This document shows, piece by piece, positions 341 to 25,069 of a DNA stretch of 64,000 nt. The stretch covers positions 1 through 64,000 of the forward strand of contig CALXUY010000005.1 in NCBI GenBank assembly GCA_944391805.1. The letters run 5' to 3'. Both the position numbers and the translations under genes were made by a program. How positions within the stretch are numbered: the first letter of the stretch is position 1; every line of letters starts with the position of its first letter. The notes below the pieces were generated by a model, which saw nothing but the letters and a program-made list of their open reading frames with translations, searched no databases and was not told where the DNA came from. Origin of the DNA: an uncultured Clostridia bacterium (lineage in GTDB: Bacteria; Bacillota; Clostridia; Oscillospirales; CAG-272).

Positions 341-454
341 TGCCTGTCAAATTTCCCTTGCACGCTGTATTCCTTGCCGCTTGGCAAAAATCAATCGCTA
401 CGGTCGGGGCAAGTAAATCATTGAAAACCCTGAAGATATAAGAAAGAAGGAAAC

Positions 455-1964: not shown

Positions 1965-2501
1965 ATGCGAATCAAGGATAGTTACAATTATGCGTCCCCA
2001 CAATACAGTCGATTGTATGAACCTTCCCGCGCGGTCAGCAAGGCTTACGGGGAGGGGAACAAATGGCTGGACCAACTCAAGGAATATGTATATATCGTGC
2101 AGGGGATGCCGAATCTTTCCCGTCTCATTCACGAGAATGCGCATAAGCAACTGGAGTATCTCGATGAATTTGGCGATGTTCTGCACCAGCGCCATCTTAT
2201 GCAGTTTTATCCGACAGTGGAGGAACTCGCGCTGGAGGACGAGGTTTCGGATGTCGACGGTGTATTCAACTTACTGATTCGAACGTTTGACCACATACAG
2301 GAAGCACTGATGTCATTTCGCAACGCAGCCAATCAAGCCAATCTGTTGCCGCTTGCGCTGAAAACAGAAGAACTGATGGTGAAGAACTCCAACGATTATA
2401 CGGTGTTTCTGGAACTGTGGGCGCGATGGGACACAGATGGTGGAAGCAAAACCTCGTTTGATGGGCTTTGCGAAGAATATCTGGAAGGGAAGGAGGACTG
2501 A
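1965..2501 (+). CDS. Phage protein of unknown function, helical
   Basis: 178 residues, no recognised family. The start follows AGAAAGGAGACTAA directly after the preceding stop. Most of the protein reads as long amphipathic helices (for example around LSRLIHENAHKQLEYLDEF and FNLLIRTFDHIQEALMSF), a layout resembling ferritin/Dps-like four-helix proteins, but I see no clear metal-binding set, so no enzymatic role is claimed. It lies between the DGR operon and the head protease, where a portal-associated or capsid-internal protein would fit. Confidence 0.55.
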   Translation: MRIKDSYNYASPQYSRLYEPSRAVSKAYGEGNKWLDQLKEYVYIVQGMPNLSRLIHENAHKQLEYLDEFGDVLHQRHLMQFYPTVEELALEDEVSDVDGVFNLLIRTFDHIQEALMSFRNAANQANLLPLALKTEELMVKNSNDYTVFLELWARWDTDGGSKTSFDGLCEEYLEGKED

Positions 2502-2507
2502 TTCTGT

Positions 2508-3863: not shown

Positions 3864-3879
3864 AAAGGAGAACACAACA

Positions 3880-4512
3880 ATGGCTTATACCGCAAACACG
3901 ATGTTTGAAGTGATTGTGTCCAACAGCGTACACAATCAGACCCAGAACGTGCCCGGCATGTACGGCACCTACTCGGGCAGCTTTGCCCCCGCCGACTGCG
4001 ACGCTGGCAGGCTTGTTGTAAAGAACAGTCTGATCCCTTTGCGTGGCTATGAAGATCTCACCCCGCCGATTCTCAACGGCAACACGTGGTACTTTGTGGA
4101 TGCCGCAAACGGTACCTCCGGGGGAGCCTATGGCGACCACACCGGCATTTATGTTGCCAATACCTATGATGTGAACAAGGTCACAGGCGGCGATTTGAGC
4201 TACAACCTCGGTAGTGATACGCTGGGTCTTGGCATTCCCAGCGGAGAACGGGAAAATTTCTTTGAACTGATGATCGGTGAGACCTATGCTTGGGGAAGCG
4301 GAAACTTTACCGGCGGCACCGCACCGACGTCTACCAACAAATACTGCACCATTGCCAATGGTCTACTGACCGCATCGTCTACGGTTCCCGCAGCGGGCAC
4401 CGGCGTTTACTTTGAGTTTCTCTATTCAAAACCGGTGAATGAAGGTGTATGGCTGGGGCAGACCGGATATGTACTCGTCGCAAAGCGAACCGCTGAAGCG
4501 GCATCTGAATAA
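3880..4512 (+). CDS. Putative head decoration protein
   Basis: 210 residues, start after AAAAGGAGAACACAACA. Rich in Gly, Ser, Thr and Asn, beta-strand-like, with no charged helices or signal peptide, as expected of a virion surface protein. It lies between the scaffold and the capsid candidate, the position of gpD in lambda. Assignment rests on position and composition; I recognise no specific motif. Confidence 0.5.
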   Translation: MAYTANTMFEVIVSNSVHNQTQNVPGMYGTYSGSFAPADCDAGRLVVKNSLIPLRGYEDLTPPILNGNTWYFVDAANGTSGGAYGDHTGIYVANTYDVNKVTGGDLSYNLGSDTLGLGIPSGERENFFELMIGETYAWGSGNFTGGTAPTSTNKYCTIANGLLTASSTVPAAGTGVYFEFLYSKPVNEGVWLGQTGYVLVAKRTAEAASE

Positions 4513-4534
4513 TGAATAGGGAGGAATTTGAAAA

Positions 4535-5776
4535 ATGGCACTGAAACTGAACTCGGTCAACAGAGACCTTTTTGTGGCAAAGAGCGCGAACGATTCCAAA
4601 GTCCGCGTGAACGGCGTCGGGGATATTTCCCGCAACGAGCTCATCGCAACTGGACGGCTGCTCTATTGCGAATATGCGGGGAGGCGTCTGAACGCGATGC
4701 CGCGCCTTTCCAGTGATAAATATAATTCCATGCTGGACGCGAAGGGTGTGGATTATCAGGAGCTTTCTCAGAAGCATGATGAAAAGAAACTGCTTTTCTG
4801 CGCCGCGCAGGCATATAAAGTGCTTGGCAAAGATGCACCCGACCTCGAAACGGTCAAGAGGGATCGTAATCTGAACGGCGATCTGATCTTTCTGAATACG
4901 ATGGCGGCCATTGAAAACGAGGTTGTGAATCCTCTGATGTTCACTGTGTTTGATGATTTTACATCCGGTGGATTGATTCAGTGGTACTCGGCTCCGGGCG
5001 GCGGCACGGTGGAGATCGACGTCAAATCCAACGATGTATTCCTGTGGCAGGATTCCGCGCCAGGCTCTTCCAACAGTACACCCAAGAATTACATGCGTCC
5101 AAAGACTGTCACAATGACCCCGAAAACCTATACCTGCAATTTCACGATTAAGGGATTTCAGGATTGGGTAAACGGAGACGCCGGCTATCATTATGCGGCA
5201 ATGGGCTTTGGCCTAATGAACAAGTGTTACGCCATGATGATGCAGGAAATGAAAGGTGCGGTTCAAAAAGGATTGATTCTTGACGATTTGACTGCGCCTT
5301 CTTACAGCTCATCCAACTGGGCACGGATCAGTACTCTGGTTGCAATGACCAATGGTGTGAGGAGAGATGATTTGATTGCCTACGGCAGCATTGGAGCGCT
5401 CTCGCAGGTGCTTCCTGTGGACGGCACGACCGGAGCGATTACCGGGCTGCAGTACGGTCTCGGCAAAGAGTGGTTTGAGAGAGGCTATCTCCCGAACGCG
5501 GCAGGCGTGCAGCTCTTTGAAGTAGTTCCGGTCATTGTACCAGGCACGCAGAACAGCACGCTCCAGACCATTGATTTCGGAGACGATATTTACATCACCG
5601 CCAAGGCAGGCTACGGCTATGCGCCCATCTTCGGCGTATTTGCGGAGGGAACGCCCTTTACCATCTCCATGTCTCCCGCACAGACCGCAGACCGCACGAT
5701 CAATGTCAATATGACCGCGCTGTTTGACATCAAGCCGATGTTTATAAACAAGGTCGGCTTGATTCAGGGCTCATGA
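4535..5776 (+). CDS. Major capsid protein (candidate)
   Basis: 413 residues, start after AGGGAGGAATTTGAAAA. It follows the scaffold and decoration-like genes immediately, has the size usual for HK97-fold capsid proteins, lacks transmembrane segments, and has an N-terminal charged helical region followed by mixed alpha/beta sequence. No diagnostic motif can be named, so the call rests mainly on gene order (protease, scaffold, decoration, capsid). The next genes are short connector-sized proteins, which agrees. Confidence 0.65.
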   Translation: MALKLNSVNRDLFVAKSANDSKVRVNGVGDISRNELIATGRLLYCEYAGRRLNAMPRLSSDKYNSMLDAKGVDYQELSQKHDEKKLLFCAAQAYKVLGKDAPDLETVKRDRNLNGDLIFLNTMAAIENEVVNPLMFTVFDDFTSGGLIQWYSAPGGGTVEIDVKSNDVFLWQDSAPGSSNSTPKNYMRPKTVTMTPKTYTCNFTIKGFQDWVNGDAGYHYAAMGFGLMNKCYAMMMQEMKGAVQKGLILDDLTAPSYSSSNWARISTLVAMTNGVRRDDLIAYGSIGALSQVLPVDGTTGAITGLQYGLGKEWFERGYLPNAAGVQLFEVVPVIVPGTQNSTLQTIDFGDDIYITAKAGYGYAPIFGVFAEGTPFTISMSPAQTADRTINVNMTALFDIKPMFINKVGLIQGS

Positions 5777-5811
5777 TAAAAAAATAACCAGAAAAAGGAC
5801 GGAATCGGGAA

Positions 5812-6429
5812 ATGGCAGAAAAAGAAAAGAAAGAAAATTTCTCAAGAGACGAAGTGCAGAAGATGATTGCGGAAGCCGTTGCAAAGGCGCTTGCCGAATC
5901 AAAGACCGGGAACGTGATTCATGTGAAAACGGACGAATATGTCACGGTTACCTATATCGGTCCGATGGCTCCTGGAACCGTATTTGATTTAGGGGATTGG
6001 GGAAAGATCAACCGGTCCGGCGGTACCCTGAAAATTCCCAAGGAGAAATTCTTGCAGGGAATTGATTACCGGATGGAAAAACGGCTGGAGAAGCGGAAAC
6101 TGATTGTACTGAACGGGCTGACCGAGGAGGAGATGGAGCGTTACGGAGTGAAATACAGAGCCGGCGAGCTGATGACCGAGCGGATTTATGCCAATCTGTG
6201 TAAACTGCCGCCGCAGGATCTGATTTCGATTTTCGGTAATCTATGTGAGTGGCATAAGAAAACCTTTGCCAATACCATTGAATCCGACTACTTCGAGAAA
6301 GGCAGTTCGACAATCGACGTAGACACGCTGAAAACGCTGAACAACATGTCCAGAAGCGTGGACAAAAAAGGATTGTTCCGCCATATGCTGGATGACATCG
6401 GTCAAAAACTTTCCAGCGAGGAAGGCTGA
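5812..6429 (+). CDS. Phage protein after capsid, unknown
   Basis: 205 residues. The first 35 residues are a charged helix (EKKENFSRDEVQKMIAEAVA), then comes a small beta domain with YVTVTYIGPMAPGTVFDLG, then a helical C-terminus. The genes before and after suggest a head-completion or capsid-associated role, but no family is recognised. Confidence 0.55.
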   Translation: MAEKEKKENFSRDEVQKMIAEAVAKALAESKTGNVIHVKTDEYVTVTYIGPMAPGTVFDLGDWGKINRSGGTLKIPKEKFLQGIDYRMEKRLEKRKLIVLNGLTEEEMERYGVKYRAGELMTERIYANLCKLPPQDLISIFGNLCEWHKKTFANTIESDYFEKGSSTIDVDTLKTLNNMSRSVDKKGLFRHMLDDIGQKLSSEEG

Positions 6430-8511: not shown

Positions 8512-8688
8512 GTGAAAAAGATTTTCGGCAAAATTCTGATTGGGCAGGATGAATTGGAATATCTTTTGAGCCAGACCTATGAGCTGGGATTTTCCGATGG
8601 AGAGAAAATATCAAACGCGAAGCTGCAAAGCAGGGAAACGGCGGAGTTTACCATCAATGGGAAAAATCGATCCTTCCGGGGGACGTGA
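8512..8688 (+). CDS. Small phage protein, 58 residues
   Basis: GTG start at 8512 preceded by AGGAGG at about 8499-8504, giving VKKIFGKILIGQDELEYLLS at the N-terminus. Basic-acidic, no membrane segment. The stop at 8686-8688 overlaps the GTG of a possible upstream start of the next gene, indicating tight coupling. Function unknown. Confidence 0.5.
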   Translation: MKKIFGKILIGQDELEYLLSQTYELGFSDGEKISNAKLQSRETAEFTINGKNRSFRGT

Positions 8689-8690
8689 CG

Positions 8691-10217
8691 ATGGGCAGCA
8701 GCGAACAGTACATCAAAAACGCCGCGGCATTTGCGCAGCCGTCAGGAGGTATCCGTACCAATGCGCCGTCCCAGTATGCCGGAAGGCAGAAGCAGTATCT
8801 TGCTGAACGTTCCGCTTTGTTTGACGCGGAGAGGGCATATCTCTCCAGCGATTATGTGAACGCCGATGTGCAGGGGCTGACAGCCGATTTCTATGAATGG
8901 ACAAACACAAACATCCGTATGTCGGATATCATCCGCCCAAGCGCATCCCTGACACGAAAGAACGATGACGTCAAGCAGATATTGTTGCCGGAGCTGGCGG
9001 TGGACTATCTGCCAATCGGCGCAAAAATTCAGGCAATGGGAAGCACATGGATTTGTATCAATCCATCCAATATTTCCAGCGCACGAGCGACTGCCATCGT
9101 ATATCGGTGCAATACAGCCTACAACAGCTATGACTGTTATGGGAATGTGGTATCGGAGCCAATCGTGATCGAAAAATCAAATATGCTTGGAAACGACAAT
9201 GAATCCCCGGAGAATCTGATTCTGATGGACGGCTACTTCCACGTCATCTGCCAACTCAATGACAATACGCGCAGGCTTGGGCAAAATAAAAGAATCATTC
9301 TCGGCACCAAGGCCTATTACATCACAGGGTTTACCGATTTCATTCGGGAGTTTACGAATGATCGGGACAGCGTCCATTTACTGGATTTCACCGTGAGAAT
9401 TGAGGAGCCAACAGAGGCAGACGACGTCACCGTCAACTTTATCGCGGGTGGAAATACACAGAGCTTTGAGGCCATTATCGGTGGCGCGGAAAGCGTGCAG
9501 GTTGGAGAATTGACAACCTATACTGCCCAGTTCGTCTCAAACGGAGAAATCATGCATCCCACAGAGGATTGCCCGATCACATGGGAATGGACTTCATCCG
9601 ACCACTCCGTTGCCACAGTGGATGTATTCGGGAACGTGTCCGGCATTGCCGAAGGAAGTGCGCAGATCACCGCGACACTGGCGCAGAATCCGAATGTCAG
9701 CGCAACGGCTTCGATTACGGTGAGCACTGCCGGAATGACCGAAAACGTGTCGTTTATCGGGTATGTGCAATCCTCCGTGCGGCAATATACCTCTGCGGTA
9801 TACACAGCATTTTATTTTCGGAATGGTGAACGGATGCCAAACGGCGTGACATTCAGCTTTTCCGGCGCAGACCCGTCCTGCTATCTGGTTCTGTACGGCA
9901 CAAACGATGATCTGGCAAATTCCACGGTCAGCGTGGATCTTGGAGACATGCTGCTCAAACAGTACTTTGCCGGGGAAAGCTACAACGGCTCCGAGCTGTC
10001 GCTGGATGACGGTGTGCTCTACCAAACCAGTGACCCAACAAAATACAATCCGGTGCGGACAAAACTGGTTGACGGAGTTCTGTACGCCGTGACAGATGAG
10101 CTTGGATTTAACCAGGTCATGATTACGGCGGTTAAACCAAGTCCGGTTCCGTTGACCATTACCGCATCCTATGGAGGTGTTTCCAAGTCGATTATCGTTG
10201 ATCTGGAGGGATATTGA
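8691..10217 (+). CDS. Phage structural protein with BIg2-type Ig domain
   Basis: 508 residues. ATG at 8691 is preferred; a GTG at 8685 is an alternative. The N-terminal ~230 residues form an unrecognised structural domain. Residues about 245-355 read as a bacterial Ig-like (BIg2) domain: ITWEWTSSDHSVATVDVFG then GNVSGIAEGSAQITAT, the classic pattern S-S-x-x-x-V-A-x-V-D-x-x-G-x-V-x-G. A further beta-rich region follows. BIg2 domains in virions decorate tails and neck whiskers and may bind host surface sugars. It lies before the tail tube candidate and is probably a neck or tail protein. Confidence 0.6.
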   Translation: MGSSEQYIKNAAAFAQPSGGIRTNAPSQYAGRQKQYLAERSALFDAERAYLSSDYVNADVQGLTADFYEWTNTNIRMSDIIRPSASLTRKNDDVKQILLPELAVDYLPIGAKIQAMGSTWICINPSNISSARATAIVYRCNTAYNSYDCYGNVVSEPIVIEKSNMLGNDNESPENLILMDGYFHVICQLNDNTRRLGQNKRIILGTKAYYITGFTDFIREFTNDRDSVHLLDFTVRIEEPTEADDVTVNFIAGGNTQSFEAIIGGAESVQVGELTTYTAQFVSNGEIMHPTEDCPITWEWTSSDHSVATVDVFGNVSGIAEGSAQITATLAQNPNVSATASITVSTAGMTENVSFIGYVQSSVRQYTSAVYTAFYFRNGERMPNGVTFSFSGADPSCYLVLYGTNDDLANSTVSVDLGDMLLKQYFAGESYNGSELSLDDGVLYQTSDPTKYNPVRTKLVDGVLYAVTDELGFNQVMITAVKPSPVPLTITASYGGVSKSIIVDLEGY

Positions 10218-11254: not shown

Positions 11255-12373
11255 ATGACTGCTTTTAACTTCGGAAATCCGAACCTGTTCGTCAAGGGGC
11301 AGGTAGAACAGATCATGCGCGACCCTGCCACGGGAAACATCATCGCGTATGACAACCTTTCGTCCGACGGTGCAGTAAACTATACGTTTAATGCACAGGA
11401 AATCGCAGCCGGGTTTGGCAATGGTCTGGCCGCCATTATCCCGGACACCACCCGCCTGACCGGCACGTATACATCGCAGGGCTTCTCACTGGTACACCGA
11501 GCGCTGGTGACTGGCGGAACGCTTTCGTATAACGCGGTAGTTCCGGTATGCGAATCTGTTACCGTTTCCTCCGGGACTGCGCTGACAGTTACCGGTACCC
11601 CGTCGAAAGAGTACGGACAGCCCGCTTCTGACACCAACGTATGGTGCACCGTGAGGGAGAGCGGCGTGGCGCAGTATTCCGGCACGAATTATGGGATTGA
11701 CCCCGACACCAAGACGGTGGTCGGATTTTCTGCGGTAGCCGGCAAGACATATGAGGTTTTCTATTTTTCCGAGAATGCCTCCGCGCAGGCGCTGGCCATT
11801 CCGGCCGCCGGAGCGCCGGCTGTTGTACATCTGACGCAGAAGTACGGTATTTACGCCAAGCAGAACAATTCGATTACCCAGTCCACTCTGTGGGGATACC
11901 TGTACCTTGTTGTCCCGAAGGCAACCCTGAACGGGGACGCCGGAATCGACGGCAACCAGACCACCAACACAACCACCCAGTTTGGCTGGAGCGCAATCAC
12001 GGATGACAGCTTGCCCGGAATGGTTTGCAACGATTGCGCCGCGCCGATTTCCAACATGGCCTATTATGTGATTGTACCCTGCGCCGGCTCTACTTCGCAG
12101 GTTCAGGCGCTTGTGGTGGTTGGCGGTGCTGTGACGGTTGGTACGTCAGAGACCGCACAAATCCCTGTGAAGTATCTGATGCCTGACGGCTCCACCGTTC
12201 AGCCGGTTTATACCGATCTCTCTTATGAATCGGATAACAATTCCACCGCTACGGTGAATGAGAACGGGCAGGTGACGGGTGGAAGTTCGCCCGGAGAGAC
12301 TGAAGTGACCATTACACTGACCCGATCTGGATTGTCTACATTAACCACGTATTGCAACGTCACTGTATCGTGA
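11255..12373 (+). CDS. Major tail (tube) protein with C-terminal Ig-like domain (candidate)
   Basis: 372 residues, start after AAAGGAGTAAAA-like site. Beta-rich, Gly/Thr-rich, no helices of note. Residues about 295-372 form a BIg2-like domain (LSYESDNNSTATVNENGQV, then TGGSSPGETEVTITL), as found at the C-terminus of many siphovirus tube proteins, where it projects from the tail surface. It is encoded two genes before the tape measure, the expected position for a tube protein. Confidence 0.65.
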   Translation: MTAFNFGNPNLFVKGQVEQIMRDPATGNIIAYDNLSSDGAVNYTFNAQEIAAGFGNGLAAIIPDTTRLTGTYTSQGFSLVHRALVTGGTLSYNAVVPVCESVTVSSGTALTVTGTPSKEYGQPASDTNVWCTVRESGVAQYSGTNYGIDPDTKTVVGFSAVAGKTYEVFYFSENASAQALAIPAAGAPAVVHLTQKYGIYAKQNNSITQSTLWGYLYLVVPKATLNGDAGIDGNQTTNTTTQFGWSAITDDSLPGMVCNDCAAPISNMAYYVIVPCAGSTSQVQALVVVGGAVTVGTSETAQIPVKYLMPDGSTVQPVYTDLSYESDNNSTATVNENGQVTGGSSPGETEVTITLTRSGLSTLTTYCNVTVS

Positions 12374-13046: not shown

Positions 13047-16000
13047 ATGGCGAAAATCATATTGAACGTAGAGCTGAAAAGCGCGAATGTCGATGCGCAG
13101 CTCAAAACTCTGAAAAGCGGAATCGACAGCGTTGCGCAATCGCTGAAAAATATTACTGTAAACAAGGATTTGACCGCGCAGCTCAACGCGCTCACCAAGT
13201 ACTATAATGCGGTTGCCAGCGCGGCGCAAAAAGCAACCACGGCAACCGAAAAGCGGCAGCTTGCCGAGCAAAGGCTGGCAACCGAGGTTGCGCGTACAAA
13301 TACGCAGCAGGCAAAATATGCGGCACAGGTGGAAAAGCTGAATCAAGTGCACCTGAAATCCGTCAACAATGTGGATCGTTTGCAGAAACAGTACGCCTCG
13401 TTGCTGCTGACCATGAAGAACGCCAGCAAAAATTATCCGCGCGGTACGTTTACCGACTACACCAAGCAGGTTACAGATAATCTGAATGCTGTCAAAGCAC
13501 TGAACGCGCAGATCGCCTCACAGAACGGCAATATCATGCCGGAGCAACAGAAGCAGCTTGAGGCTCTGTCCGCGCAGTTCTCCAAATTGTCAACAGAAAT
13601 CGGAACCGTGCGCGCCGAAGGCAAAAAGGCAGAAACCCAGTTTGGCAGCATGGTTACCGGGTTCATGAAGTGGACGGCAGCGGCAACCCTTGTGATGCAG
13701 GCCATTAACCTTATAAAGGCCGGGTTTGCCAGTCTGAATGAAACGTTGGTCAATACCGAAAAACGGGTGATTGCAATTCGCCGGGTTCTGAATGAGGACA
13801 TTTCGAGCGAAAATATTTCGAATGATCTTTACAATCTGGCAATTGAGTATGGGCAGACCTTTGACAATGTTGCGGATATTGCCGAGAACTTTGCAAAGAC
13901 CGGCATGGATTGGACGGAAAGTATTCAGGCAGCCGAAGCCGCGCTGCTGGCTTTGAACGTTGCTGAATTGGATTCCGAAGATGCCAGTGAGGGTTTAATT
14001 GCCATTATGGTGCAGTTCGGGAAAGAGGCCAGCGAACTGACGGATATTATTGACAAGCTCAATAAAACAGCCGACCGATTCCCGGTTTCCACCGAAGAAA
14101 TCCTGCTTGCGCTGGAAAAGACCGGTTCTTATGCCAAGCAGGCAAAGATGTCGTTGGAAGAAACCGTGGCGGTGATTACCGCACTTTCCAGCGCGACCAA
14201 TGCCAGTGGGCAGCAGTTGGGCACGGCGATCAAGTCTTTGCTTGCCTATACGACAAGGAGTGCGTCTCTGGACACATACGCCGCGCTGTCACCGGATATG
14301 GCGGCGGTTGTTGCGGATTACCGTAAGGGAGCAGTATCCATTCTTGAGGTATGGGAAGGTCTCTCCAAAGAAATGCAGCACCTGACAAAGGAGCAGGGAG
14401 ATATGCTTGCCCAATATGCGGAAAGTGCAGAAGGACAGGCACTGGAGGATGCACTCGGCGAAGAACTTGGAGAGGTCTATGACGATATGACCGGCGTATA
14501 CGACACTGCCGGAACCTATCGGAAAAACTACTTCATTGCATTGATGAGTAATTTCAATGAAGTGTCCGAGGCGCTGGAAGAAATGAAAGGCGCAGTCGGG
14601 TACTCACAGGAAGAAAATCTGCAATATCTGAACACATACGAGGCCAAGCTCAACAGTCTGACTGCACAGTGGGAGAAGATGCTGAATTCCGAGCAGGGCT
14701 TTTTGGATTTCAAAAAAGACTTGGTGGACATGGGTTCACGGCTTTTGGACATTGTGGCCGCACTTGGCGGAATCGATACGATTGTACGGACTATCATTGC
14801 TGCGGTTGCGCCGTATATCGCGGCCAAGACATGGATCAGTCTGGCGGCGCATTTCAAGGCGCTGGGAGCTGCGATCAAAGGCGTGGCGATGAACGCGAAA
14901 ACCGCCGGCATGGCACTGAATACTATGCTTGGCGTCATCGGCGCGATATTAGCGGTGATCACCTTGGTCGATGGCGCGATCGAGGGCGCCAAGCTCGCGA
15001 GACAGGAGACAATCAGCGAAGGGGCGGATGCACTGGCTGAATTTGGGCAGGAGCTTGACAATATTCGGGAAAAGTATGATGCGCTTTCCGAATCCATCTC
15101 CAATTACAAAAATGTTCTTGATAGCGGAACTTCTTCAGAATCAGAAAGAGAAAGTGCTCTGGAAGGTCTCAAAAAAATTCAGGATGATCTGATTAAGAGC
15201 AACAACGAATATGCAGGTTCTCTGGACCTCATTAACGGAAGCCTGGATGACCAGATTGAAAAACTGGACCAAATTAAACTGAAGGAAATTCAGTCGCAGG
15301 TGGCGGAGTTCAGTAAGAAAAACGCAGATGCTGCTGTGAAGTCCGAACAGTACCTGAACAAAGAGATTTATCAATGGACTTTTTTGGAAGAAAATAGCCC
15401 ATATGGCGGCGAAAAAAGACTTTTGAATTATCTTAAAGAAAATGGATTTACCACGAATGATAAAATTTTCGCAGATATTTTTTTTGGAGATAATTGGTTT
15501 GATAACTTAACCGGCGCCCTTTCAGCAGCGGTTGGTCTTTCTTCAGGAAATACAGGGCTGAAAATGTCAAATTATCTTGAAGGCGGCTATACCCCGAAAG
15601 AATGGTTGGATCTTTTTAACGGGCTGTTAGAGACTATCCAAAATGATACGGAAATTTCCGATACTGACCGCGAATATCTGACTGATCAAGTACAGGCGGC
15701 TATCAATGAATTAACTGGAGAAGGTTCCACTTATTCCGATGCCATGAAATTTCTGTATGGGGATAAGGAATCGGACGTGTTTACGGAGTGGCTTTCCAAA
15801 GAGCAGCGGAATATCGTAGCGAACGGAACACCTGAACAGATTCAGGCGCTATATGAAGAATTTCTGGAAAGCATAAAGGAAGTATCAGAAGAAACCGATA
15901 AACCGGTCGAGGATACCGTCAAGTGGGAAAACTCCATTGAACATGTTTCCGATGAATACGACGAAATCGTAAGCAAAATGAAGGAGCTGCGCAGCGAAAG

Positions 16001-16685
16001 CCAGAAGGTTTTGGAAATTGAGCAGGCCAGACAGGATTTGCTCAACAAAGGCAATGGGGAAGTGCAAATCGCACGTGTTGTGAATGCAGAGACAGGTCAG
16101 TTTGAACTTCAAGTCAACAGGGAGGTGAGCAAGGATGTTCTGGAAAACGCGGAGGACGCCGCCTTTGAAGAAATTTATATGGAATTGGAGAGCGGCGAAG
16201 CGACCAATCAAAGTATCCTTGACATTCTGGATACTTGGGACAAAGCTGGCCTCCCGGAAGAAAGCATCGAAAGCATCAAAGACCTTATCTTGCAGGCTAC
16301 CGGGGTTGATCTTGACAAGCCTGTCCTGAAGGATGGCGTACCGGTTTATGATAACGGTGGAATCCTGAAAGGAGTAGGCGGGATCAAAGCCACCGAAAAA
16401 GACGAACTGGTGCTGCCTCCATGGTTGACCGAGCAGATTCTGCGCCCGATTCCATACGCGGAAACGCAGGCGGCAGTCGAGCGCGCAATGATGGAAATGA
16501 TCAAGCCCATCATCCCGCCCCCAAGCGTAGGAATGGTTTATACCTATCAGGGAGGGAATACGACAAGAGATAGCTATAACAACACCGATAACCGTAACTT
16601 TTATATTAACGGCGTTCCGATTCCTGCCCGGACAGCGGAAACGCATACATTGTTGGAAATCGTTGAGGGAATGTCCCTCGTCTGA
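13047..16685 (+). CDS. Tail tape measure protein
   Basis: 1212 residues, start after AGGAGG. Residues 1-220 are a long alanine-rich coiled coil, a hydrophobic segment lies near 205-225, and residues 230-480 carry the TP901-type tape-measure core (TENISNDLYNLAIEYGQ-like helices, then ALEKTGSYAKQAKMSLEETV and ALSSATNASGQQLGTAIKSL). A cluster of hydrophobic helices follows at about 575-650 (ALGGIDTIVRTIIAAVAPYI). The protein fixes tail length and is ejected during infection. A protein of this size predicts a tail of roughly 180 nm at 0.15 nm per residue, using general knowledge of tape measures. Confidence 0.9.
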   Translation: MAKIILNVELKSANVDAQLKTLKSGIDSVAQSLKNITVNKDLTAQLNALTKYYNAVASAAQKATTATEKRQLAEQRLATEVARTNTQQAKYAAQVEKLNQVHLKSVNNVDRLQKQYASLLLTMKNASKNYPRGTFTDYTKQVTDNLNAVKALNAQIASQNGNIMPEQQKQLEALSAQFSKLSTEIGTVRAEGKKAETQFGSMVTGFMKWTAAATLVMQAINLIKAGFASLNETLVNTEKRVIAIRRVLNEDISSENISNDLYNLAIEYGQTFDNVADIAENFAKTGMDWTESIQAAEAALLALNVAELDSEDASEGLIAIMVQFGKEASELTDIIDKLNKTADRFPVSTEEILLALEKTGSYAKQAKMSLEETVAVITALSSATNASGQQLGTAIKSLLAYTTRSASLDTYAALSPDMAAVVADYRKGAVSILEVWEGLSKEMQHLTKEQGDMLAQYAESAEGQALEDALGEELGEVYDDMTGVYDTAGTYRKNYFIALMSNFNEVSEALEEMKGAVGYSQEENLQYLNTYEAKLNSLTAQWEKMLNSEQGFLDFKKDLVDMGSRLLDIVAALGGIDTIVRTIIAAVAPYIAAKTWISLAAHFKALGAAIKGVAMNAKTAGMALNTMLGVIGAILAVITLVDGAIEGAKLARQETISEGADALAEFGQELDNIREKYDALSESISNYKNVLDSGTSSESERESALEGLKKIQDDLIKSNNEYAGSLDLINGSLDDQIEKLDQIKLKEIQSQVAEFSKKNADAAVKSEQYLNKEIYQWTFLEENSPYGGEKRLLNYLKENGFTTNDKIFADIFFGDNWFDNLTGALSAAVGLSSGNTGLKMSNYLEGGYTPKEWLDLFNGLLETIQNDTEISDTDREYLTDQVQAAINELTGEGSTYSDAMKFLYGDKESDVFTEWLSKEQRNIVANGTPEQIQALYEEFLESIKEVSEETDKPVEDTVKWENSIEHVSDEYDEIVSKMKELRSESQKVLEIEQARQDLLNKGNGEVQIARVVNAETGQFELQVNREVSKDVLENAEDAAFEEIYMELESGEATNQSILDILDTWDKAGLPEESIESIKDLILQATGVDLDKPVLKDGVPVYDNGGILKGVGGIKATEKDELVLPPWLTEQILRPIPYAETQAAVERAMMEMIKPIIPPPSVGMVYTYQGGNTTRDSYNNTDNRNFYINGVPIPARTAETHTLLEIVEGMSLV

Positions 16686-16708: not shown

Positions 16709-19700
16709 ATGGCATTGTTTCAACCCTCCAATATCACACCATCCTCTTTTGCCGGAATCGGAGGCGGCGTGGTTGCCGCGAGCAGCCTTGTCAGTGTCAC
16801 ATGGCAGATCAACGGAAATTCCCCCATGACCGGCTTTCGGATTCAGATATTGGATGTAGACGATTCAAACACACAGGTGCATGACACCGGATATATTGCA
16901 AGCGGACAGCAATACAGCACGGATGCACAGGGCAATCCCGCATTCTACTCCTATGAGCCTTCCGGCGCGACTTGGAGTTCATGGGGGCTTACCGATGGCA
17001 ATTCCTATTTGCTCAAAATCACGCAGTATTGGGGAAGTGGGCAGAGCAACTTTGTGGAGCAGTATTCGCCTTCGCATTTTATTACCAGAACAGCTCCAAG
17101 CCTTACCATTACTGATTTTGTGAAGCCGGTGGCAACCATCAGCCAAACCTTTACCGCGTCTTATACGCAGGCGCAGGGTGACCCGATCAATTGGGTACGC
17201 TGGCAGTTTGCAAGAGTGGTGAACGGCACAAGAGAGATGATTGATGATACCGGTGAGATCAATACCAGCGTGCTTTCCTACACTACCGACGGGATGCAGA
17301 GCGGGAGTTCATACGCAATCAACTGCATTGTGGAAACCTCCAGCGGCGTTGTCACGCCGGATATTTGGCAGGAATTTACGGTATCTTACACAGATGCCGA
17401 GACAAGCGGCGGTCTTTCAATTGATTGTTCGGATAAAGTATCCAATCTGTTGGAGTGGAACCAATTTGCCGATTATTCCAGTATCCCCGGAATTGCCGAG
17501 GGCAGTATCAATTATGCCGATGATGGGTTGAGTTTGGGAGAAAGTGCCTCGGTAACGTGGAATATGCCGGAGAACGGAGCCATTGAGCCGTCTTATGGTT
17601 TTGCATGGAAGGGAAGCATCAATACCAACGGTCTTGTTAATTTAATCAACAAACAATATTCAGTTGTACCGCAAGGAATCACATTATTTCGATTCAGCCC
17701 CAATGGTGAATATGAGTTTGTATATGGACCAAGGGCATCAGGATCTGAATCCGGCGCTTATGTGACGTACGCAAGCATGATTTTCAGTGTGGACGCCGAC
17801 ATCAACCTTCCGTTTCTTGTGACGGATGCTGCCTTTTCACCGGATAACAGATGTCTTGCAGTTCTTATGTACGACAGTGAAACACTTGCAACCCAGATTC
17901 AACTGTACGCCATCTCGCACCATGGATATACTCTCAATTTTAGCTTGATTACATCGTTATCGCCATCTATTGAACAGAGCCGCGGTGTTTCTTTCAGCAA
18001 TGACGGCTCACTGTTGGTATGTACCTCAAGGAATTTATTAACTGTATGGAAAGTAAATGCATCGCTTTGGCCTTCCAGCGAATATTTGGGCGATACATAT
18101 CAGTACGCAGGACGTTGGCAGGGACGAATCCGATTCAATTCAGATGACAGCAAGATGCTTTCGTTTGCGTTTGATGCATCCACCAATTCGAGAAAGTCTG
18201 TTGTATTCTCAATCAATAACGCATCCATTACAAACTGGACACAGACCAGTATCAATATTACAACTGAAGATAATTTGAGCGATGCATTTTTCAATTCTTC
18301 AACCGGAAATATTGTGTTGGTTGGTACATACGGAAGTATTCAGGTATACACTCCAACCGGAACAAAAGTCGGAGAATCCTCAACCAGCCTTGGCATGGTC
18401 AGAGGCGCTTCCATTTCTCCGAGCGGGGAAATTCTTTTGGTATCGCTTCCTTCCGGCATAAATGCATTCAGAAGTAACGGAAACAATTACAATCTTGTGC
18501 ATGAATATAACACCGGTGACACAGCTTATGTTGAGTTTTCACCGACTGGAACATCGTTTGCATATGGCACGATGAGTTTGGAGACGTGGAAATATATCAT
18601 TGAGGAATCGGGTTCGTTACTTTTCCTGTATGGAAAGGGAGACAGCAGTCATTCGGCAAATGCCATTCGCTTGATGATGAATGGGGCAGAAATATCCCTT
18701 TCAATTGCCAAAAGAGCTTCGTCAGGCGGCACCGACGTTGAGTTTTACGAAGCCACTATGAGTATTCTGGATTTGATCGAAACAGACGTTTTGTTGGAAC
18801 AAAATGCACAGGTAGACGCTGTCATTTCCATCAGAGGCGAGTCCGGTTCAAATGTAAATCTTATCGGATATTTTTCAAATGGAGACTCTAAACTATCGGC
18901 ATTATCTCCGACACTTACGCCGGCGGATCTTCCGGAAATTGCTACAGTGACCTTGTATGGAGCGCAGTTCTGCCGTTGGCTGACATTTTCCAAGAACTCA
19001 AATGTGCTGTATAACTACAACTATGTACCGCCGGATTGGGAGGATGGAACAACCCTGCTGCTGACGCATTTTGACTGGAGTACATTGGACGCGGGTAATG
19101 TTGCGCCGGACAATTTGAGCGCGGACCTGTACCGTGAAAATCTGAACGACGGAACGTTGGAAAAACTATTCTCGGTTCCGGCGGATGTTTCCAAGCTGCG
19201 GGATTATGGATGGATTACAGGGCAGGAATATCGCTATATCATGTACAATGTGGAGGATGGTACCTATTCAGCTCCGATTGCGTCCGAGAGTACCTGCCGC
19301 GTTTCCAAGGCATATATCCTGCTCGAAGCCTCACAAGACACGGAAAATCCGAATGCGTATCATGTCGTGAGATATTGGCGATTCTCGAACAATATTTCCA
19401 GCGGAGCAGTCAGCAACAACAACTCGCCCAATTTTCAAACCAACTTCACGCGGTACCGACTGCCGCAGCCGGCAACCAGAATGGGACGGAGCGGAACCCT
19501 GCAAACTTTGCTGTCCAATGTCAATCCCTATACCAACCGATATGCCGATACCGCGCAGGAGATGGAGGAACTGTTTGCCGCCTCTGCAAGCCGGAATCAG
19601 TTTTTCCTGAAGGATATGAAGGGAAACCTGTATATGATTCAGATTTCCGCCCCGGTTACACAGACCATTGATGAAAAGTCTACTGCCCAACATGTTACAG

Positions 19701-20014
19701 TATCGCTTTCATGGGAGGAGATCGGAGACTGTACGGGGGTATCCCTGATACAGCTTCCGACAGATGATGGATGGGGGCTGATAGACAACAGCGGTATTCT
19801 GTCCGTCAGACTGTATGTAGACCTGGATACCGGCCTGTTAATGGCGCAGTATCCGGAGGGATATACGGCAACACAGTTTTCGGTCACACAGAACACGTCC
19901 GATACGCCGGTTGACGCAATTGTATTGAGCGCCGTCACTGACAGCTCGTATGAGCAGCCCGAATTTGTGTTGGACGATGGCCGCCTGTATGTATCGATTC
20001 AAACGCAGAACTGA
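16709..20014 (+). CDS. Large tail protein with embedded WD40-like propeller
   Basis: 1101 residues. Residues 1-220 read as two fibronectin-III-like modules. A beta-sandwich-like region starts at about 235 (SVTWNMPENGAIEPSYGFAW). Residues about 325-630 then contain seven repeats of 40-50 residues with the WD40/YVTN-like core F-S-P-x-G-x-x-L-x-V: FSPNGEYEFVY, FSPDNRCLAVL, FSNDGSLLVCT, FNSDDSKMLSF, FNSSTGNIVLV, ISPSGEILLVS, FSPTGTSFAYG, several followed by V-W/V-Y strands (LLTVWKVN, SIQVYTPTG). Sandwich-like sequence resumes afterwards (GSLLFLYGKGD). The gene follows the tape measure and precedes baseplate-like genes, so it is probably a tail-tip or distal tail adhesin. Confidence 0.7.
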   Translation: MALFQPSNITPSSFAGIGGGVVAASSLVSVTWQINGNSPMTGFRIQILDVDDSNTQVHDTGYIASGQQYSTDAQGNPAFYSYEPSGATWSSWGLTDGNSYLLKITQYWGSGQSNFVEQYSPSHFITRTAPSLTITDFVKPVATISQTFTASYTQAQGDPINWVRWQFARVVNGTREMIDDTGEINTSVLSYTTDGMQSGSSYAINCIVETSSGVVTPDIWQEFTVSYTDAETSGGLSIDCSDKVSNLLEWNQFADYSSIPGIAEGSINYADDGLSLGESASVTWNMPENGAIEPSYGFAWKGSINTNGLVNLINKQYSVVPQGITLFRFSPNGEYEFVYGPRASGSESGAYVTYASMIFSVDADINLPFLVTDAAFSPDNRCLAVLMYDSETLATQIQLYAISHHGYTLNFSLITSLSPSIEQSRGVSFSNDGSLLVCTSRNLLTVWKVNASLWPSSEYLGDTYQYAGRWQGRIRFNSDDSKMLSFAFDASTNSRKSVVFSINNASITNWTQTSINITTEDNLSDAFFNSSTGNIVLVGTYGSIQVYTPTGTKVGESSTSLGMVRGASISPSGEILLVSLPSGINAFRSNGNNYNLVHEYNTGDTAYVEFSPTGTSFAYGTMSLETWKYIIEESGSLLFLYGKGDSSHSANAIRLMMNGAEISLSIAKRASSGGTDVEFYEATMSILDLIETDVLLEQNAQVDAVISIRGESGSNVNLIGYFSNGDSKLSALSPTLTPADLPEIATVTLYGAQFCRWLTFSKNSNVLYNYNYVPPDWEDGTTLLLTHFDWSTLDAGNVAPDNLSADLYRENLNDGTLEKLFSVPADVSKLRDYGWITGQEYRYIMYNVEDGTYSAPIASESTCRVSKAYILLEASQDTENPNAYHVVRYWRFSNNISSGAVSNNNSPNFQTNFTRYRLPQPATRMGRSGTLQTLLSNVNPYTNRYADTAQEMEELFAASASRNQFFLKDMKGNLYMIQISAPVTQTIDEKSTAQHVTVSLSWEEIGDCTGVSLIQLPTDDGWGLIDNSGILSVRLYVDLDTGLLMAQYPEGYTATQFSVTQNTSDTPVDAIVLSAVTDSSYEQPEFVLDDGRLYVSIQTQN

Positions 20015-20030
20015 AAAGGAGGGAACAGAT

Positions 20031-20336
20031 ATGTCTATTCTGGATGACAGCGATCAGCTCAAGCGCGCACTCAAGCCCATCATTCTGGATATTATCAAGA
20101 ATGATTCCGACTTCAAGTCCTGCTTTCGTGTATACAAAGCCACGGTAGTATCTGTGCCAAGCACTGTCCTTGGAGTGACCGGATGCCTTGTCAAAATTGC
20201 AGGGGATGAGAATACAATGTGGCTGCCGTACACTCCTGACGTTGCAGATGTGTCGGTTGGAGATGCGGTCTGGGTTGCCGTGATCTTCAACTCATGGCGC
20301 AACGCCATTGTGTGGCAGAAAATTGATTTTTCGTGA
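20031..20336 (+). CDS. Small tail-tip/baseplate-like protein
   Basis: 101 residues, start after AAAAGGAGGGAACAGAT. C-terminal two thirds look like an OB-type beta barrel (YKATVVSVPSTVLGVTGCLV, WLPYTPDVADVSVGDAVWVA), a form used in phage baseplate hub parts. No membrane segment. Overlaps the upstream end of the next gene region by 4 bases if the GTG at 20333 is used. Confidence 0.5.
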   Translation: MSILDDSDQLKRALKPIILDIIKNDSDFKSCFRVYKATVVSVPSTVLGVTGCLVKIAGDENTMWLPYTPDVADVSVGDAVWVAVIFNSWRNAIVWQKIDFS

Positions 20337-20353
20337 CTGGAGGGAGAAGCACA

Positions 20354-21664
20354 TTGACAAATCGGTACGCACAGTATCTCCAAGCACTAAAAAGCGGGAA
20401 AGGATTTCAGAAGCTATCAAAGCTGGAATTCCTCCAGCCGGACGGTTCCGTGGCGTTTTCGCTTGGAAATACCTTCAAGCGGGGCTATATGACAACTCAT
20501 GATTCCCGTGCCTTTATCCAAGGAGGGACATTGAACGTGTCCTTGCAGAACGGTGAGCGCAGAAAAGCCACTGTAACACTTGCCAATCTGGACGATGCGT
20601 TCGACTACAACATCAATAAAATCTGGTTCGGGCAGCAGGTAAGACTTCTGATGGGATTGGTGTTGCCGGACGGAACCGACTTCTATCTACCGCAGGGCGT
20701 TTTCTATATCAAAGATCCGCAAGCCGTCTTTCAGCCCGATTCCCGAACGGTCACGTTTCCGCTGGTAGATAAATGGAACTACCTCAATGGCAGCTTGTTC
20801 GGAACATTGGAGGCAAACTATGTTGTAGCAGAAGGTCAAAATATCTTCGACGAAATCAAAAAGATTCTGACCTTCTCCAAAATCAATCTGGTATCCGCAA
20901 CGACCGATCCGCAGTTACAAATTGACAGTACCGCGCCGGTATTCACGGATTATTACGATGACAAAACCTACTCGGCGACGAACAGCGATGGCTCTATTAC
21001 CTCGGATATTCCGATGCTGCAAACGCCATATTCCATCAGGGAGGCATCCGGTGGTACATTCGGCAATCTGGTTCTCACGATGAATGACCTGATTGCCGGT
21101 ATCATCGGATACGACCAGACCGGCGCGCTGCGGATTGAGGCATCACAGGATGACATCTTTGATGAGGAGAAAGCCGTGCTTTGGAGCTTTACTCCAAACA
21201 ACAGCCTGTTGTTCAGCATATCGGAGACGCAAAAGAACAGCGAGGTATGCAACCAAGTGCTCGTTATCGGAGAAGGGAGTTCCGGGGAGATTGTGTGGGC
21301 TTCGGCGGAGAATTATGATCCTGCAAGCGATACGAATATCAATATCATTGGTCGGCGGCCTTACAAGCTGGAGGGGGCAACCTTTTGGAATGTGCAGCAG
21401 TGCGTGGATCTGGCAACATGGAATCTGAAGCGAAAGACGATTCTGCGCAAGTCCGTGTCCATTCAATGCCAGCAGATGTTCCATCTGATTGAGAACGGGC
21501 TGGTATCGATTGTGCGCACGGACAAGCAGGGAAGCCCGGTGGAAAAGCATGTGATTCAATCGTTCAGCCTGCCCATCGGGGAAACCGGAGCGATGTCCAT
21601 CACTGCCGTCAGTGCAAACGATATTCCGCAATTCACATCAACGACATCTTCGGGAACGGCTTAA
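20354..21664 (+). CDS. Baseplate hub/tail-tip protein
   Basis: 436 residues. TTG at 20354 is chosen because GGAGGGAG lies 8 bases upstream; a GTG at 20333 is in frame. The protein has the arrangement of siphovirus hub proteins: an N-terminal beta domain (SLQNGERRKATVTLANLDD, FGQQVRLLMGL), a middle with PQGVFYIKDP, and a C-terminal domain with the recurring NQVLVIGEGSS and VSIQCQQMFHLIENGLVSIV. Likely forms part of the tail-tip ring; no lytic or protease motif is visible. Confidence 0.6.
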   Translation: MTNRYAQYLQALKSGKGFQKLSKLEFLQPDGSVAFSLGNTFKRGYMTTHDSRAFIQGGTLNVSLQNGERRKATVTLANLDDAFDYNINKIWFGQQVRLLMGLVLPDGTDFYLPQGVFYIKDPQAVFQPDSRTVTFPLVDKWNYLNGSLFGTLEANYVVAEGQNIFDEIKKILTFSKINLVSATTDPQLQIDSTAPVFTDYYDDKTYSATNSDGSITSDIPMLQTPYSIREASGGTFGNLVLTMNDLIAGIIGYDQTGALRIEASQDDIFDEEKAVLWSFTPNNSLLFSISETQKNSEVCNQVLVIGEGSSGEIVWASAENYDPASDTNINIIGRRPYKLEGATFWNVQQCVDLATWNLKRKTILRKSVSIQCQQMFHLIENGLVSIVRTDKQGSPVEKHVIQSFSLPIGETGAMSITAVSANDIPQFTSTTSSGTA

Positions 21665-21705: not shown

Positions 21706-22089
21706 ATGAACTGGCAAGAAATCATCATCAAAATCATCACTATGGTGTTGGGAGCACTGCTTTCCTACGCGGTCGCGCGCCTTTCGTCCATGATCAATTC
21801 CAAAATCAAGGACGAAAAGCTGAAAAACTGTCTGCAAACCTCTTTGCAGATCGTCACAGGCGCGGTCAAAAAGACCTACCAGACCTACGTGGACGGCATC
21901 AAGGGAACCGATGCATGGACAGCAGAGGCGCAGAAACAGGCCCTTACAATGGCGCTGGAAACCTGCAAATCTGAGCTTTCCGATGACTTTAAGAAGTACA
22001 TCACAAGCCACTTCGGCGACCTTGACGAATGGCTGACCTCGCAGATTGAAGCAGCTCTGTATGATGTGAAGCAGGCAAAAGCATCTTGA
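21706..22089 (+). CDS. Phage holin, LLH family
   Basis: 127 residues: one N-terminal membrane helix (IIIKIITMVLGALLSYAVA) followed by a charged helical domain (KNCLQTSLQIVTGAVKKTYQ...), the layout of the LL-H holin family. Holins permeabilise the membrane and time lysis. It lies after the tail genes as expected, but no endolysin gene is adjacent in the window. The stop codon overlaps the promoter of the toxin gene that follows. Confidence 0.75.
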   Translation: MNWQEIIIKIITMVLGALLSYAVARLSSMINSKIKDEKLKNCLQTSLQIVTGAVKKTYQTYVDGIKGTDAWTAEAQKQALTMALETCKSELSDDFKKYITSHFGDLDEWLTSQIEAALYDVKQAKAS

Positions 22090-22425: not shown

Positions 22426-22454
22426 ATTATACACCAACTTGAGCGGTATGTCAA
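22426..22454 (-). promoter_or_regulatory. Consensus promoter of the antitoxin RNA
   Basis: On the minus strand TTGACA (22449-22454), a 17-base spacer and TATAAT (22426-22431), a perfect consensus promoter directed at the toxin gene. There is no open reading frame downstream of it that could explain it otherwise. Confidence 0.8.
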
Positions 22455-22500
22455 GGTGTTTTTATCAAAAAGACTTGATAGAGCGATACCTAATTGTATG

Positions 22501-23169
22501 TTAATTATATAGTTGGTCATATAGTTCATTAAAGCCACTGGTATTTATATCGAACGAATATGTGTCCAAACTATATCCGCTCCTCGACAAATGAAATTTT
22601 AATATCTGTGGCGTTTTTAGCAAATCTAAAACTTCTGTTTTATTTTCTTCATCGTCAATAAATATTCTTTCGCTGTATTGATTTCCGACAAGACGATGCA
22701 CTTCTCCGTTTCCGTCCAATATTTTGATATAATACTTATCACTTCCATATGTATTAACTATATTATCCCCATATTCCCAAAGTAAGATCCCAATAGATGT
22801 AGAGGTTACCTGTACGGCGACAAATAATTCGGAACCATTTGTTGCACTATTACTAAATTCACCCTCCGAAAATCCAATCAAATATTTTACTCCAATTGGT
22901 CGGTCAAATTCATCCTCAAATTCTCCATCTCCCCATAATGTATAAGTGTTTCCGCAACGCTTACAGGTGCCAAATACTACGGTATGCCCAAGCGCATCTC
23001 CAAAAGTTTCTCCACATTTTGAGCATGTTTTTGGTTCCGTACAGGTTGCCGGTTCCCAATCGTGGGCACAGGTAGTTTGGCGGGGAGTATTATAGTACGA
23101 ATTTTCTACGCAAGAGCAAAAACCGCATAATATAGATGCAACCAATAATGCTACTACTATTCGCTTCAT
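22501..23169 (-). CDS. Lipoprotein with Cys/His zinc-ribbon-like segment
   Basis: 222 residues. Signal peptide with lipobox ILCGFCSC (Cys at about residue 20), then a segment with CAHDWEPATCTEPKTCSKCG and GTCKRCGNTY, a Cys-rich unit common in Clostridia surface lipoproteins, then a beta-rich domain. Exported and membrane-anchored. AT-rich and opposite in direction to the phage structural genes, as expected of lysogenic-conversion cargo. Function unknown. Confidence 0.6.
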   Translation of the reverse strand: MKRIVVALLVASILCGFCSCVENSYYNTPRQTTCAHDWEPATCTEPKTCSKCGETFGDALGHTVVFGTCKRCGNTYTLWGDGEFEDEFDRPIGVKYLIGFSEGEFSNSATNGSELFVAVQVTSTSIGILLWEYGDNIVNTYGSDKYYIKILDGNGEVHRLVGNQYSERIFIDDEENKTEVLDLLKTPQILKFHLSRSGYSLDTYSFDINTSGFNELYDQLYN

Positions 23170-23187
23170 TTCAAACTACCTCAATCC

Positions 23188-23667
23188 TTAAAAACGGTCT
23201 TTGTAAAGCGCGTTTCTGATTTCTTCCAACAGCTCTAATTTTTTTGCATAATAAAAGAACGGGAGCATTGCAATTAGTCCAATTAAAAGGCAAACAATAG
23301 CTACCAATATGAAGACAAAATCATAATGAATAACCCACCTCCCAATATATGTATTCATAGTAAAGCCGGTTATCAGTGCCGCAATAGCCATCAAGCATCC
23401 AAATCCCAAAAATACGATCCCGATTCCACGTAAAATTTTGGGTATTGGCGTTGGTTTTAAATTTGCAACCAAATGTCGTGTGCTTGATAATTGAGGTATA
23501 TTCTGCTGTGAATATACCTGATTCGCTGGGTAGGGTGTCTGCTGCGGTTGGTAGGCGCTCTGGCTTGGTGCAGAAACGTAGCCATGATTCTTTCTCTTTT
23601 TTGGTTGCTTTGGTTGTTTTGCCTTTCTTGGCCCAAGCCCTCCAAACTGGCTTTCTTCCCATCCCAT
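23188..23667 (-). CDS. Two-helix membrane protein, prophage cargo
   Basis: 159 residues: a basic, Gln/Pro-rich N-terminal region (about 1-75, with KAKQPKQPKKRKNHGY), two hydrophobic helices (about 82-102 and 115-138) and a short C-terminal helix. No enzymatic motif. It sits 18 bases upstream of the lipoprotein on the same strand and probably forms a bicistronic cargo unit with it. Confidence 0.5.
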   Translation of the reverse strand: MGWEESQFGGLGPRKAKQPKQPKKRKNHGYVSAPSQSAYQPQQTPYPANQVYSQQNIPQLSSTRHLVANLKPTPIPKILRGIGIVFLGFGCLMAIAALITGFTMNTYIGRWVIHYDFVFILVAIVCLLIGLIAMLPFFYYAKKLELLEEIRNALYKDRF

Positions 23668-23932: not shown

Positions 23933-25069
23933 ATGGTTGAGTACTATATTTCGTCAACGAAATGCTCTATCCAAGAGCGAAAAACAAAAAAGCACGGCAC
24001 CGTATATGACGTCGTGTTTCGTATCGTAACAATGGATGGGAAGGAAATACAAAAGAAATTATCCGGGTTTTTAACAAAAAAAGCTGCCAAAGAAGCTCAT
24101 GCAACCTTCATCACCGATAAATGTACGCTGGTGAAAAATAATCCCATTAAAAAGAAATCTCAAGAAACAATCAAATTGGTTCCGACAGTAGCCGATCTCA
24201 TACCAAAATATATTTTATCTCTCCATAATCAGAATAAAGACAGCTCAATATATGGGAAAATTCGACTGTACAATTCAATCATCATTCCGATGTTGGGAGA
24301 GTGCAAAATAACAGACTTGACAAAAGAGAGGCTGTACCAATGGCAGGATGAACTGTGGTCATCCCAAAATCCGGCTACAGGGAAAAGCTATTCGACAGAG
24401 TATCTGGAAAGGATACGGGGGCACTTCGGGGCTTTTTTGTCATGGTGCGAAAGCCGCCATGGATACCCGAACCATCTGAAGGAGGTTGCAAAGCCCAAAA
24501 AACGCATTTCCAAAACCAAAATGCAGATTTGGACAAGAGAGGAATTTGAGAAGTTCATCGCGGTTGTGGACAACCCCACACATCACACAATCTTTACCAT
24601 GCTGTTTTTTACCGGGAGGCGCAGAGGGGAGGTTCTGGCGCTCCACTATGATGATGTACAGGAGAACCAGATTATTTTCAACAAGACCTATACGAGAAAG
24701 ACCATAGACGGATCGCCATACAAAATCACAACATCCAAAAACGAAAAAATCGGAGCGACGCCCATTTGCCAGACGTTAAAGGATGAACTTACCCGGTATC
24801 AAGGTCAGATGCCATTTTTCTTTGGGGGAGAGAAACCAATCCACGAAAATACGATTTCTCACGCATTTGAATCTTACATAAAAAAGGCCGGGGTGAAAAG
24901 GATCAGAATGCATGACCTTCGGCATTCGTTTGTATCTATGCTGATCCATTTGGGCGCAAACTTTATGGTAGTTGCCGATCTGATCGGCGATACCGTGGAG
25001 CAGGTGACACAAACATATGGGCATGTTTATGATAGCGATAAATTCAGAATTATCGAAATGCTGAACTGA
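23933..25069 (+). CDS. int: Tyrosine recombinase (prophage integrase)
   Basis: 378 residues. The N-terminal part (1-65) is an arm-binding-like AP2-type domain, then a SAM-like core-binding domain (about 80-170), then the catalytic domain. Catalytic residues visible: Arg in FTGRRRGEVLAL, His-Arg in HDLRHSFVSML and Tyr in QTYGHVYD. The third histidine usually in LGH is Asp here (LIGDTVEQ), a change seen in some Firmicutes integrases. It catalyses site-specific integration and excision at the adjacent attachment site. Confidence 0.92.
   Translation: MVEYYISSTKCSIQERKTKKHGTVYDVVFRIVTMDGKEIQKKLSGFLTKKAAKEAHATFITDKCTLVKNNPIKKKSQETIKLVPTVADLIPKYILSLHNQNKDSSIYGKIRLYNSIIIPMLGECKITDLTKERLYQWQDELWSSQNPATGKSYSTEYLERIRGHFGAFLSWCESRHGYPNHLKEVAKPKKRISKTKMQIWTREEFEKFIAVVDNPTHHTIFTMLFFTGRRRGEVLALHYDDVQENQIIFNKTYTRKTIDGSPYKITTSKNEKIGATPICQTLKDELTRYQGQMPFFFGGEKPIHENTISHAFESYIKKAGVKRIRMHDLRHSFVSMLIHLGANFMVVADLIGDTVEQVTQTYGHVYDSDKFRIIEMLN

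Follow-up and report, generated by a model that had tools for sequence, protein, structure and literature searches.

The nearest functional precedent for the tail protein described here would, by analogy, be evolved Dit (evoDit), which is found in skunaviruses and other Gram-positive siphophages and in which moving the insert alters adsorption, as shown with recombinant phages (PMC10688798, PMC8540738). In evoDit, a conserved tail-tip scaffold houses an internal binding module, which some forms lack, and inserts can be single or double. The family described here shares these properties, with a module whose binding is putative. The two differ in what is inserted and where. In evoDit, a carbohydrate-binding module is carried in the belt or arm of Dit, whereas the inserts found here are a WD40-type propeller, Asp-box repeats or other repeats, and they reside in a different scaffold that has no detected similarity to known families. 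No profile match was returned when this scaffold was compared with the Dit families in Pfam and PHROGs.

Propellers have been described in several virion proteins. The tail-tip receptor-binding protein (RBP; Gp45) of the Staphylococcus aureus siphophage phi11 includes a beta-propeller, as is predicted here, but the phi11 propeller has five blades, is trimeric and forms a platform between a helical stem and a tower, while the one examined here is an insertion (PMC4901313). Predicted WD40 domains are found in the diffocin RBP RtbM and in gp33, the tail fibre of the C. difficile phage phiMMP03, which are aimed at Clostridia like the protein studied here, and recognition of S-layer protein has been proposed for such domains (PMC13324602). 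Compared by description, these belong to contractile systems with the WD40 domain in fibres, and no insertion or exchange site is described for them (PMC13324602). As cited in PMC4901313, PhiKZ gp131C, which is seven-bladed and located at the baseplate periphery, and PRD1 P2 are further virion proteins with propellers, but they represent other phage groups and architectures, and their receptor role is likewise putative. The sequence-only reading of this locus held that WD40-type propellers are rare in virion proteins. That view has to be softened, as propellers have precedents in phage receptor-binding proteins (phi11 RBP, PRD1 P2 and PhiKZ gp131C) and WD40 domains have been predicted in the diffocin RBP and the C. 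difficile phage fibre. WD40-type propellers serving as exchangeable inserts in a single tail scaffold, alternating with Asp-box or other repeats, were not found in the open-access full texts searched. Propellers in phage adhesins and internal binding inserts are each already known, and it is their combination as exchangeable inserts that appears to be new.

The window analysed is a 64,000 bp stretch of a contig from an uncultured Clostridia bacterium (CALXUY010000005.1), and the genes and parts described for the tail region and the retroelement are on its forward strand. An intact open reading frame immediately 3' of the tape measure gene (16709-20014) encodes a tail protein of 1101 aa, P0001, for which no family in Pfam or PHROGs was returned above cut-off. 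The tape measure protein (13047-16685; 1212 aa) matches PhageMin_Tail (2.7e-22) and phrog_4211 (7.5e-51). Downstream, a small 128 aa protein (19950-20336) is encoded between the P0001 gene and the gene for a 443 aa tail protein (20333-21664; phrog_1887, 4.2e-29), followed by a holin (21706-22089; phrog_13712, 2.8e-21, and Holin_LLH in Pfam) and an integrase identified by profile matches (23933-25069). As an integrase gene is present, the phage is temperate, and this gene neighbourhood (tape measure, phrog_1887, holin and integrase) led us to place the 1101 aa protein in the tail-tip module, and the phage among those with long tails. Its host is a gut Clostridia-type bacterium.

The first 235 residues of P0001 (16709-17413) form N-terminal all-beta modules that appear from the predicted strands to be two Ig/FN3-like sandwiches (pLDDT mostly 80-95); the FN3 label comes from their appearance and from the names of structural matches. 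These modules are kept throughout the family, and Pfam and PHROGs searches with them gave no family. They are followed by the first half of an interrupted beta domain (residues 236-305; 17414-17623), which ends in a WKG strand and was matched by a profile in all homologues that have the domain. An inserted seven-bladed WD40-like propeller (residues 316-640; 17654-18628), delimited using a motif matrix, AlphaFold2, structural alignment and interval measurements, separates this half from the second (residues 641-760; 18629-18988), which extends to an L.GxQxC strand. The conserved C-terminal scaffold (residues 761-1023; 18989-19777; SNNNxPxxxxNFTxY ... FLKDxKG) was defined by a homologue profile, and homologues of it weakly match phrog_27355, a family of unknown function. 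The appearance of the interrupted domain had suggested a LamG or lectin fold; insert-free homologues have no Pfam match and the region is poorly modelled, and it is therefore called only a beta domain here.

Seven F-S-x-x-G-like repeats had been reported from the sequence at about 17689-18600. Seven copies of an FSPDG-type motif, 40-53 residues apart, are indeed present at about 17693-18550. The turns are FSPNG in blade 1 (residues 329-333; 17693-17707), FSPDN in blade 2 (376-380; 17834-17848), FSNDG in blade 3 (429-433; 17993-18007), FNSDD in blade 4 (476-480; 18134-18148), NSSTG in blade 5 (529-533; 18293-18307), ISPSG in blade 6 (569-573; 18413-18427) and FSPTG in blade 7 (610-614; 18536-18550), the remainder of which has low confidence in the model. 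All were located using a motif matrix built on the FSPDG sites of four other family members, with the window protein left out. Within the insert this matrix selected exactly seven sites with a summed score of 65.0, which none of 2000 shuffled inserts reached (-10.6 +/- 8.2), and the sites at 476 and 529 are individually weak (1.3 and 3.6 bits).

The Pfam WD40 profile (PF00400) matched the window protein below cut-off (E 0.02; 15.9 bits against 27). Inserts at the same site in two homologues, designated like the others by L numbers, exceeded the Pfam cut-offs, that of L007 for WD40 (2e-10) and PD40 (2e-7) and that of L033 for WD40 (4e-7) and ANAPC4_WD40 (1e-8). A profile made from the four other inserts matched WD40 proteins in the PDB with E values down to 2e-19, and a profile built from the inserts of the window protein and L001 matched it with an E value of 2e-6. 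The comparison with propeller families that had been proposed for this protein thus returned the WD40 family, by way of the homologous inserts, and the window insert itself is best called WD40-like, a divergent member of WD40 at most. Asp-box repeats (SxDxGxTW) were not found in it.

AlphaFold2 gave an unusable model from the single sequence (pLDDT 31) and a model with a mean pLDDT of 73.5 from an alignment of 38 rows, made up of six proteins with the insert and of relatives that have Asp-box repeats or no insert. Because the residues of whole insert-free homologues were scattered over the propeller columns, the insert-free and Asp-box rows were cut into N and C parts, which kept those columns clear. 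The insert-bearing rows had been noticed via their FSPDG motifs, so the fold and motif evidence are partly dependent. Propeller residues 321-600 were mostly modelled at pLDDT 74-92, with a drop to about 60 at 341-370, and residues 608 to approximately 740, comprising blade 7 together with the half of the interrupted domain that follows it, were poorly modelled. When the model was compared with solved structures using VIA-align, 50 entries were returned at Z >=20, with WD40 proteins matching at Z 20-23 over approximately 250-275 residues. Among them were PkwA, a prokaryotic kinase, through its WD40 domain (5yzv_C; model residues 316-619, Z 22.7, 3.2 A over 260 residues), and 7bie_A, a seven-bladed WD40 protein made by design (323-621, Z 22.1). 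The matches span residues 316-622 and leave no blade of the seven-bladed templates uncovered, so the model is best read as a closed propeller of seven four-stranded blades, with blade 7 the least sure. Structure prediction had been named as the way to check the propeller, and the model contains seven repeats, rather than an unclosed ring or fewer than six blades, with low confidence in blade 7.

Sequence searches among solved structures found no match to the family scaffold. Among viral predicted structures (BFVD), those closest to the whole model were A0A8S5U8V0 (E 3e-36), from uncultured siphovirus ctnMR5, and A0A8S5V0A6 (E 7e-42), from uncultured siphovirus ctBeL15. Both are probably members of the same family, and the name of the former, 'translation initiation factor-like', suggests a WD40 match.

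To compare homologues, the interval between two conserved scaffold profiles, one ending at WKG and the other beginning just before L.GxQxC, was measured. It is 83-113 aa in about 20 distinct insert-free homologues and about 380-496 aa, with WD40-type repeats, in six distinct proteins (the window protein, L001, L007, L027, L033 and L041). In L014, L011 and L013 it is 394-684 aa and contains Asp-box repeats, the two longest being double, with BNR above cut-off in L014 and DUF6242 in L013. Intervals of 161-438 aa with other sequence are found in L023, L034, L035, L036, L039 and L051. The propeller is therefore an insertion that is absent from many homologues, and the same domain holds other kinds of insert in relatives. 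The existence of insert-free homologues also bears out the earlier suggestion that it breaks up a scaffold domain. Judged from the sequences, the WD40 inserts begin approximately 10 residues past the first profile, compared with approximately 40 for the L014 Asp-box insert, and the two kinds probably occupy neighbouring loops of one domain. In the short homologues L059, L061-L063, L065 and L066, the entire interrupted beta domain is missing (interval 0-2), and the domain that holds the propeller may itself be optional. A tree built from the C-terminal scaffold requires at least three changes in the WD40 state on its starred branches, and it places L033, which has a WD40 insert, amid close relatives carrying other inserts.

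A second insertion, of approximately 60-100 residues, is present in the N-terminal beta modules after a conserved ITQWW-like strand in a single branch of the family (L023, L033, L034, L036 and L041). Most of the named records are from Clostridia; the contigs containing L035 and L040 are filed as Muribaculaceae and Paludibacteraceae and are probably mis-binned phage contigs. When genome contigs were scanned with the window protein alone, no relative was returned, and the family alignment found 15 loci. A viral scan with the L007 insert alone returned nothing beyond its own copies, and one with the L033 insert returned no match. Against annotated phages, tblastn found no match to the L007 insert and one weak match to the L033 insert, in a hypothetical protein of Pseudomonas phage POR1.

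Comparison of the window with L001 revealed that their DNA is approximately 97% identical across some 13.5 kb, with the exception of three stretches. These are in the tape measure gene (14618-15729; about residues 540-900, replaced in L001), in the propeller (17578-18629) and near 22.2-23.2 kb. At the last of these, approximately 750 bp at about 22437-23198 is missing from L001, and it includes a minus-strand open reading frame (22501-23169) without a PHROGs match. Identity between the two propeller-containing proteins is 92-100% as far as residue 300 and 86-100% past residue 650, and it is only 36-45% in the insert, rising to 64% in its final 50 residues. Synonymous differences (pS) are saturated in the insert (0.66-0.87), compared with 0-0.18 upstream, 0.25-0.45 just after it and 0-0.06 further on. 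Given this jump, rapid point mutation was rejected as the sole explanation for the divergence. As the flanks are near-identical and the synonymous sites of the insert are saturated, a diverged allele appears to have replaced the original one, which points to exchange of the propeller as a cassette. The pattern is repeated in a second pair, L007 and L027, which are related to the window protein at 45-46%. They share flanks of 98.9% and 95.8% identity and diverge in the 3' part of the tape measure gene, the first part of the propeller gene and its propeller. In both pairs, a tape-measure segment has been replaced and so has the propeller of the next gene.

The differences between the window and L001 propellers are unevenly distributed. 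In this one pair of proteins, loops on the canonical WD40 ligand (top) face (BC and DA) are identical at 10 of 56 positions (18%), those on the other (bottom) face at 36 of 71 (51%) and the strands at 80 of 171 (47%). The contrast between the faces is significant (Fisher p 1.7e-4) and was reached by none of 297 label shifts. With the CD loops alone set against the top face it is weaker (p 0.015; 4 of 297 label shifts). In the AB loops, the SPDG turn is kept for structural reasons. In this pair, then, variation concentrates in the loops of the canonical ligand face.

From this variability, the exchange and the analogy with evoDit, we consider that the propeller is probably an exchangeable adhesion module at the tail tip, carried on a conserved all-beta scaffold. 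The scaffold would hold the propeller outwards, and its variable face would bind a component of the host cell surface. Exchange of the cassette by recombination could then change adsorption specificity or add a secondary means of attachment, in the manner of the carbohydrate-binding inserts of evolved Dit. Swapping of the inner tape-measure segment in the same pairs might reflect a phage adapting its surface binding and its DNA injection jointly to the host.

The phage also carries a diversity-generating retroelement. Its reverse transcriptase (455-1642; phrog_1423, 3e-116) follows a variable-like repeat (34-165) and a template-like repeat (208-340), which share 75% identity; of their 31 mismatches, 19 fall on an A of the template. 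In the window, the target gene is truncated by the contig start. In the L001 record, the target is a separate 751 aa protein with a C-type-lectin-like end, preceded by a 664 aa protein of similar make-up, and relatives of the reverse transcriptase are also found in the L007, L027 and L028 records. Only the repeat at 34-165 matches the template, and no match lies within 16709-20014. With the template repeat unmatched in the gene and synonymous sites differing throughout, the retroelement was rejected as the source of propeller variation. As its target in the L001 record is a separate 751 aa protein, the propeller may be a secondary binder, with another protein as the main receptor-binding protein.

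The presence of this other candidate receptor-binding protein also leaves room for a propeller that makes no host contact and is a docking platform within the virion, anchoring another tail component such as the retroelement-diversified lectin-type protein. WD40 domains are typically platforms for protein interactions, and this has been said of phage tail fibres (PMC13324602). However, many homologues have no insert, and propellers differ greatly between near-identical phages whose neighbouring tail genes are also near-identical, which is unexpected of a surface that docks a conserved partner. We therefore regard internal docking as unlikely.

An adhesion module also accounts better for the exchange than would evasion of antibodies, some other selection that has nothing to do with host binding, or neutral mosaicism in an appendage exposed at the surface, and these we consider distinctly improbable. 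Mosaicism is normal in phages, and surface-exposed virion domains of gut phages could meet such pressures, but the exchanged block matches domain boundaries, variation is highest on the canonical ligand face, and the tape-measure segment swapped in the same pairs is invisible to antibodies. Least plausible, and very improbable, is an enzyme (a glycan hydrolase or lyase) that clears surface polysaccharide: other relatives carry the Asp-box/BNR repeats present in sialidase-type propellers and enzymatic propellers do occur in phage tailspikes, e.g. the K1F endosialidase, but the window insert is similar to WD40 propellers, most of which have no catalytic role, and its top structural matches are non-enzymatic WD40 proteins. 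The tailspike is named in PMC12632334.

A broader reading, to which we give about an even chance, is that the interrupted beta domain serves a widespread family of gut-phage tail proteins as a general docking site. Whole WD40 and Asp-box propellers and other repeats would be exchanged there by recombination along with a tape-measure segment, in a natural two-part cassette system for altering host specificity whose diversified binding surface would be the ligand face of WD40. The receptor-binding modules of phages that infect uncultured gut Clostridia are almost unknown. The defined insertion site, the insert-free relatives and the natural pairs, whose differences lie mainly in the insert and a single tape-measure segment, provide a ready-made test of which domain determines host specificity, and a group of tail proteins that today lacks annotation would gain a functional class.

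In the window, two upstream structural proteins (8685-10217 and 11255-12373) contain Big_2 Ig-like domains (2e-8 and 1e-4, the latter just under cut-off). The viral contig L002 includes three successive genes (363-6168), each encoding approximately 640 aa with many propeller repeats of the FSPDGTKMYVxG type, and their products are probably tail or fibre proteins.
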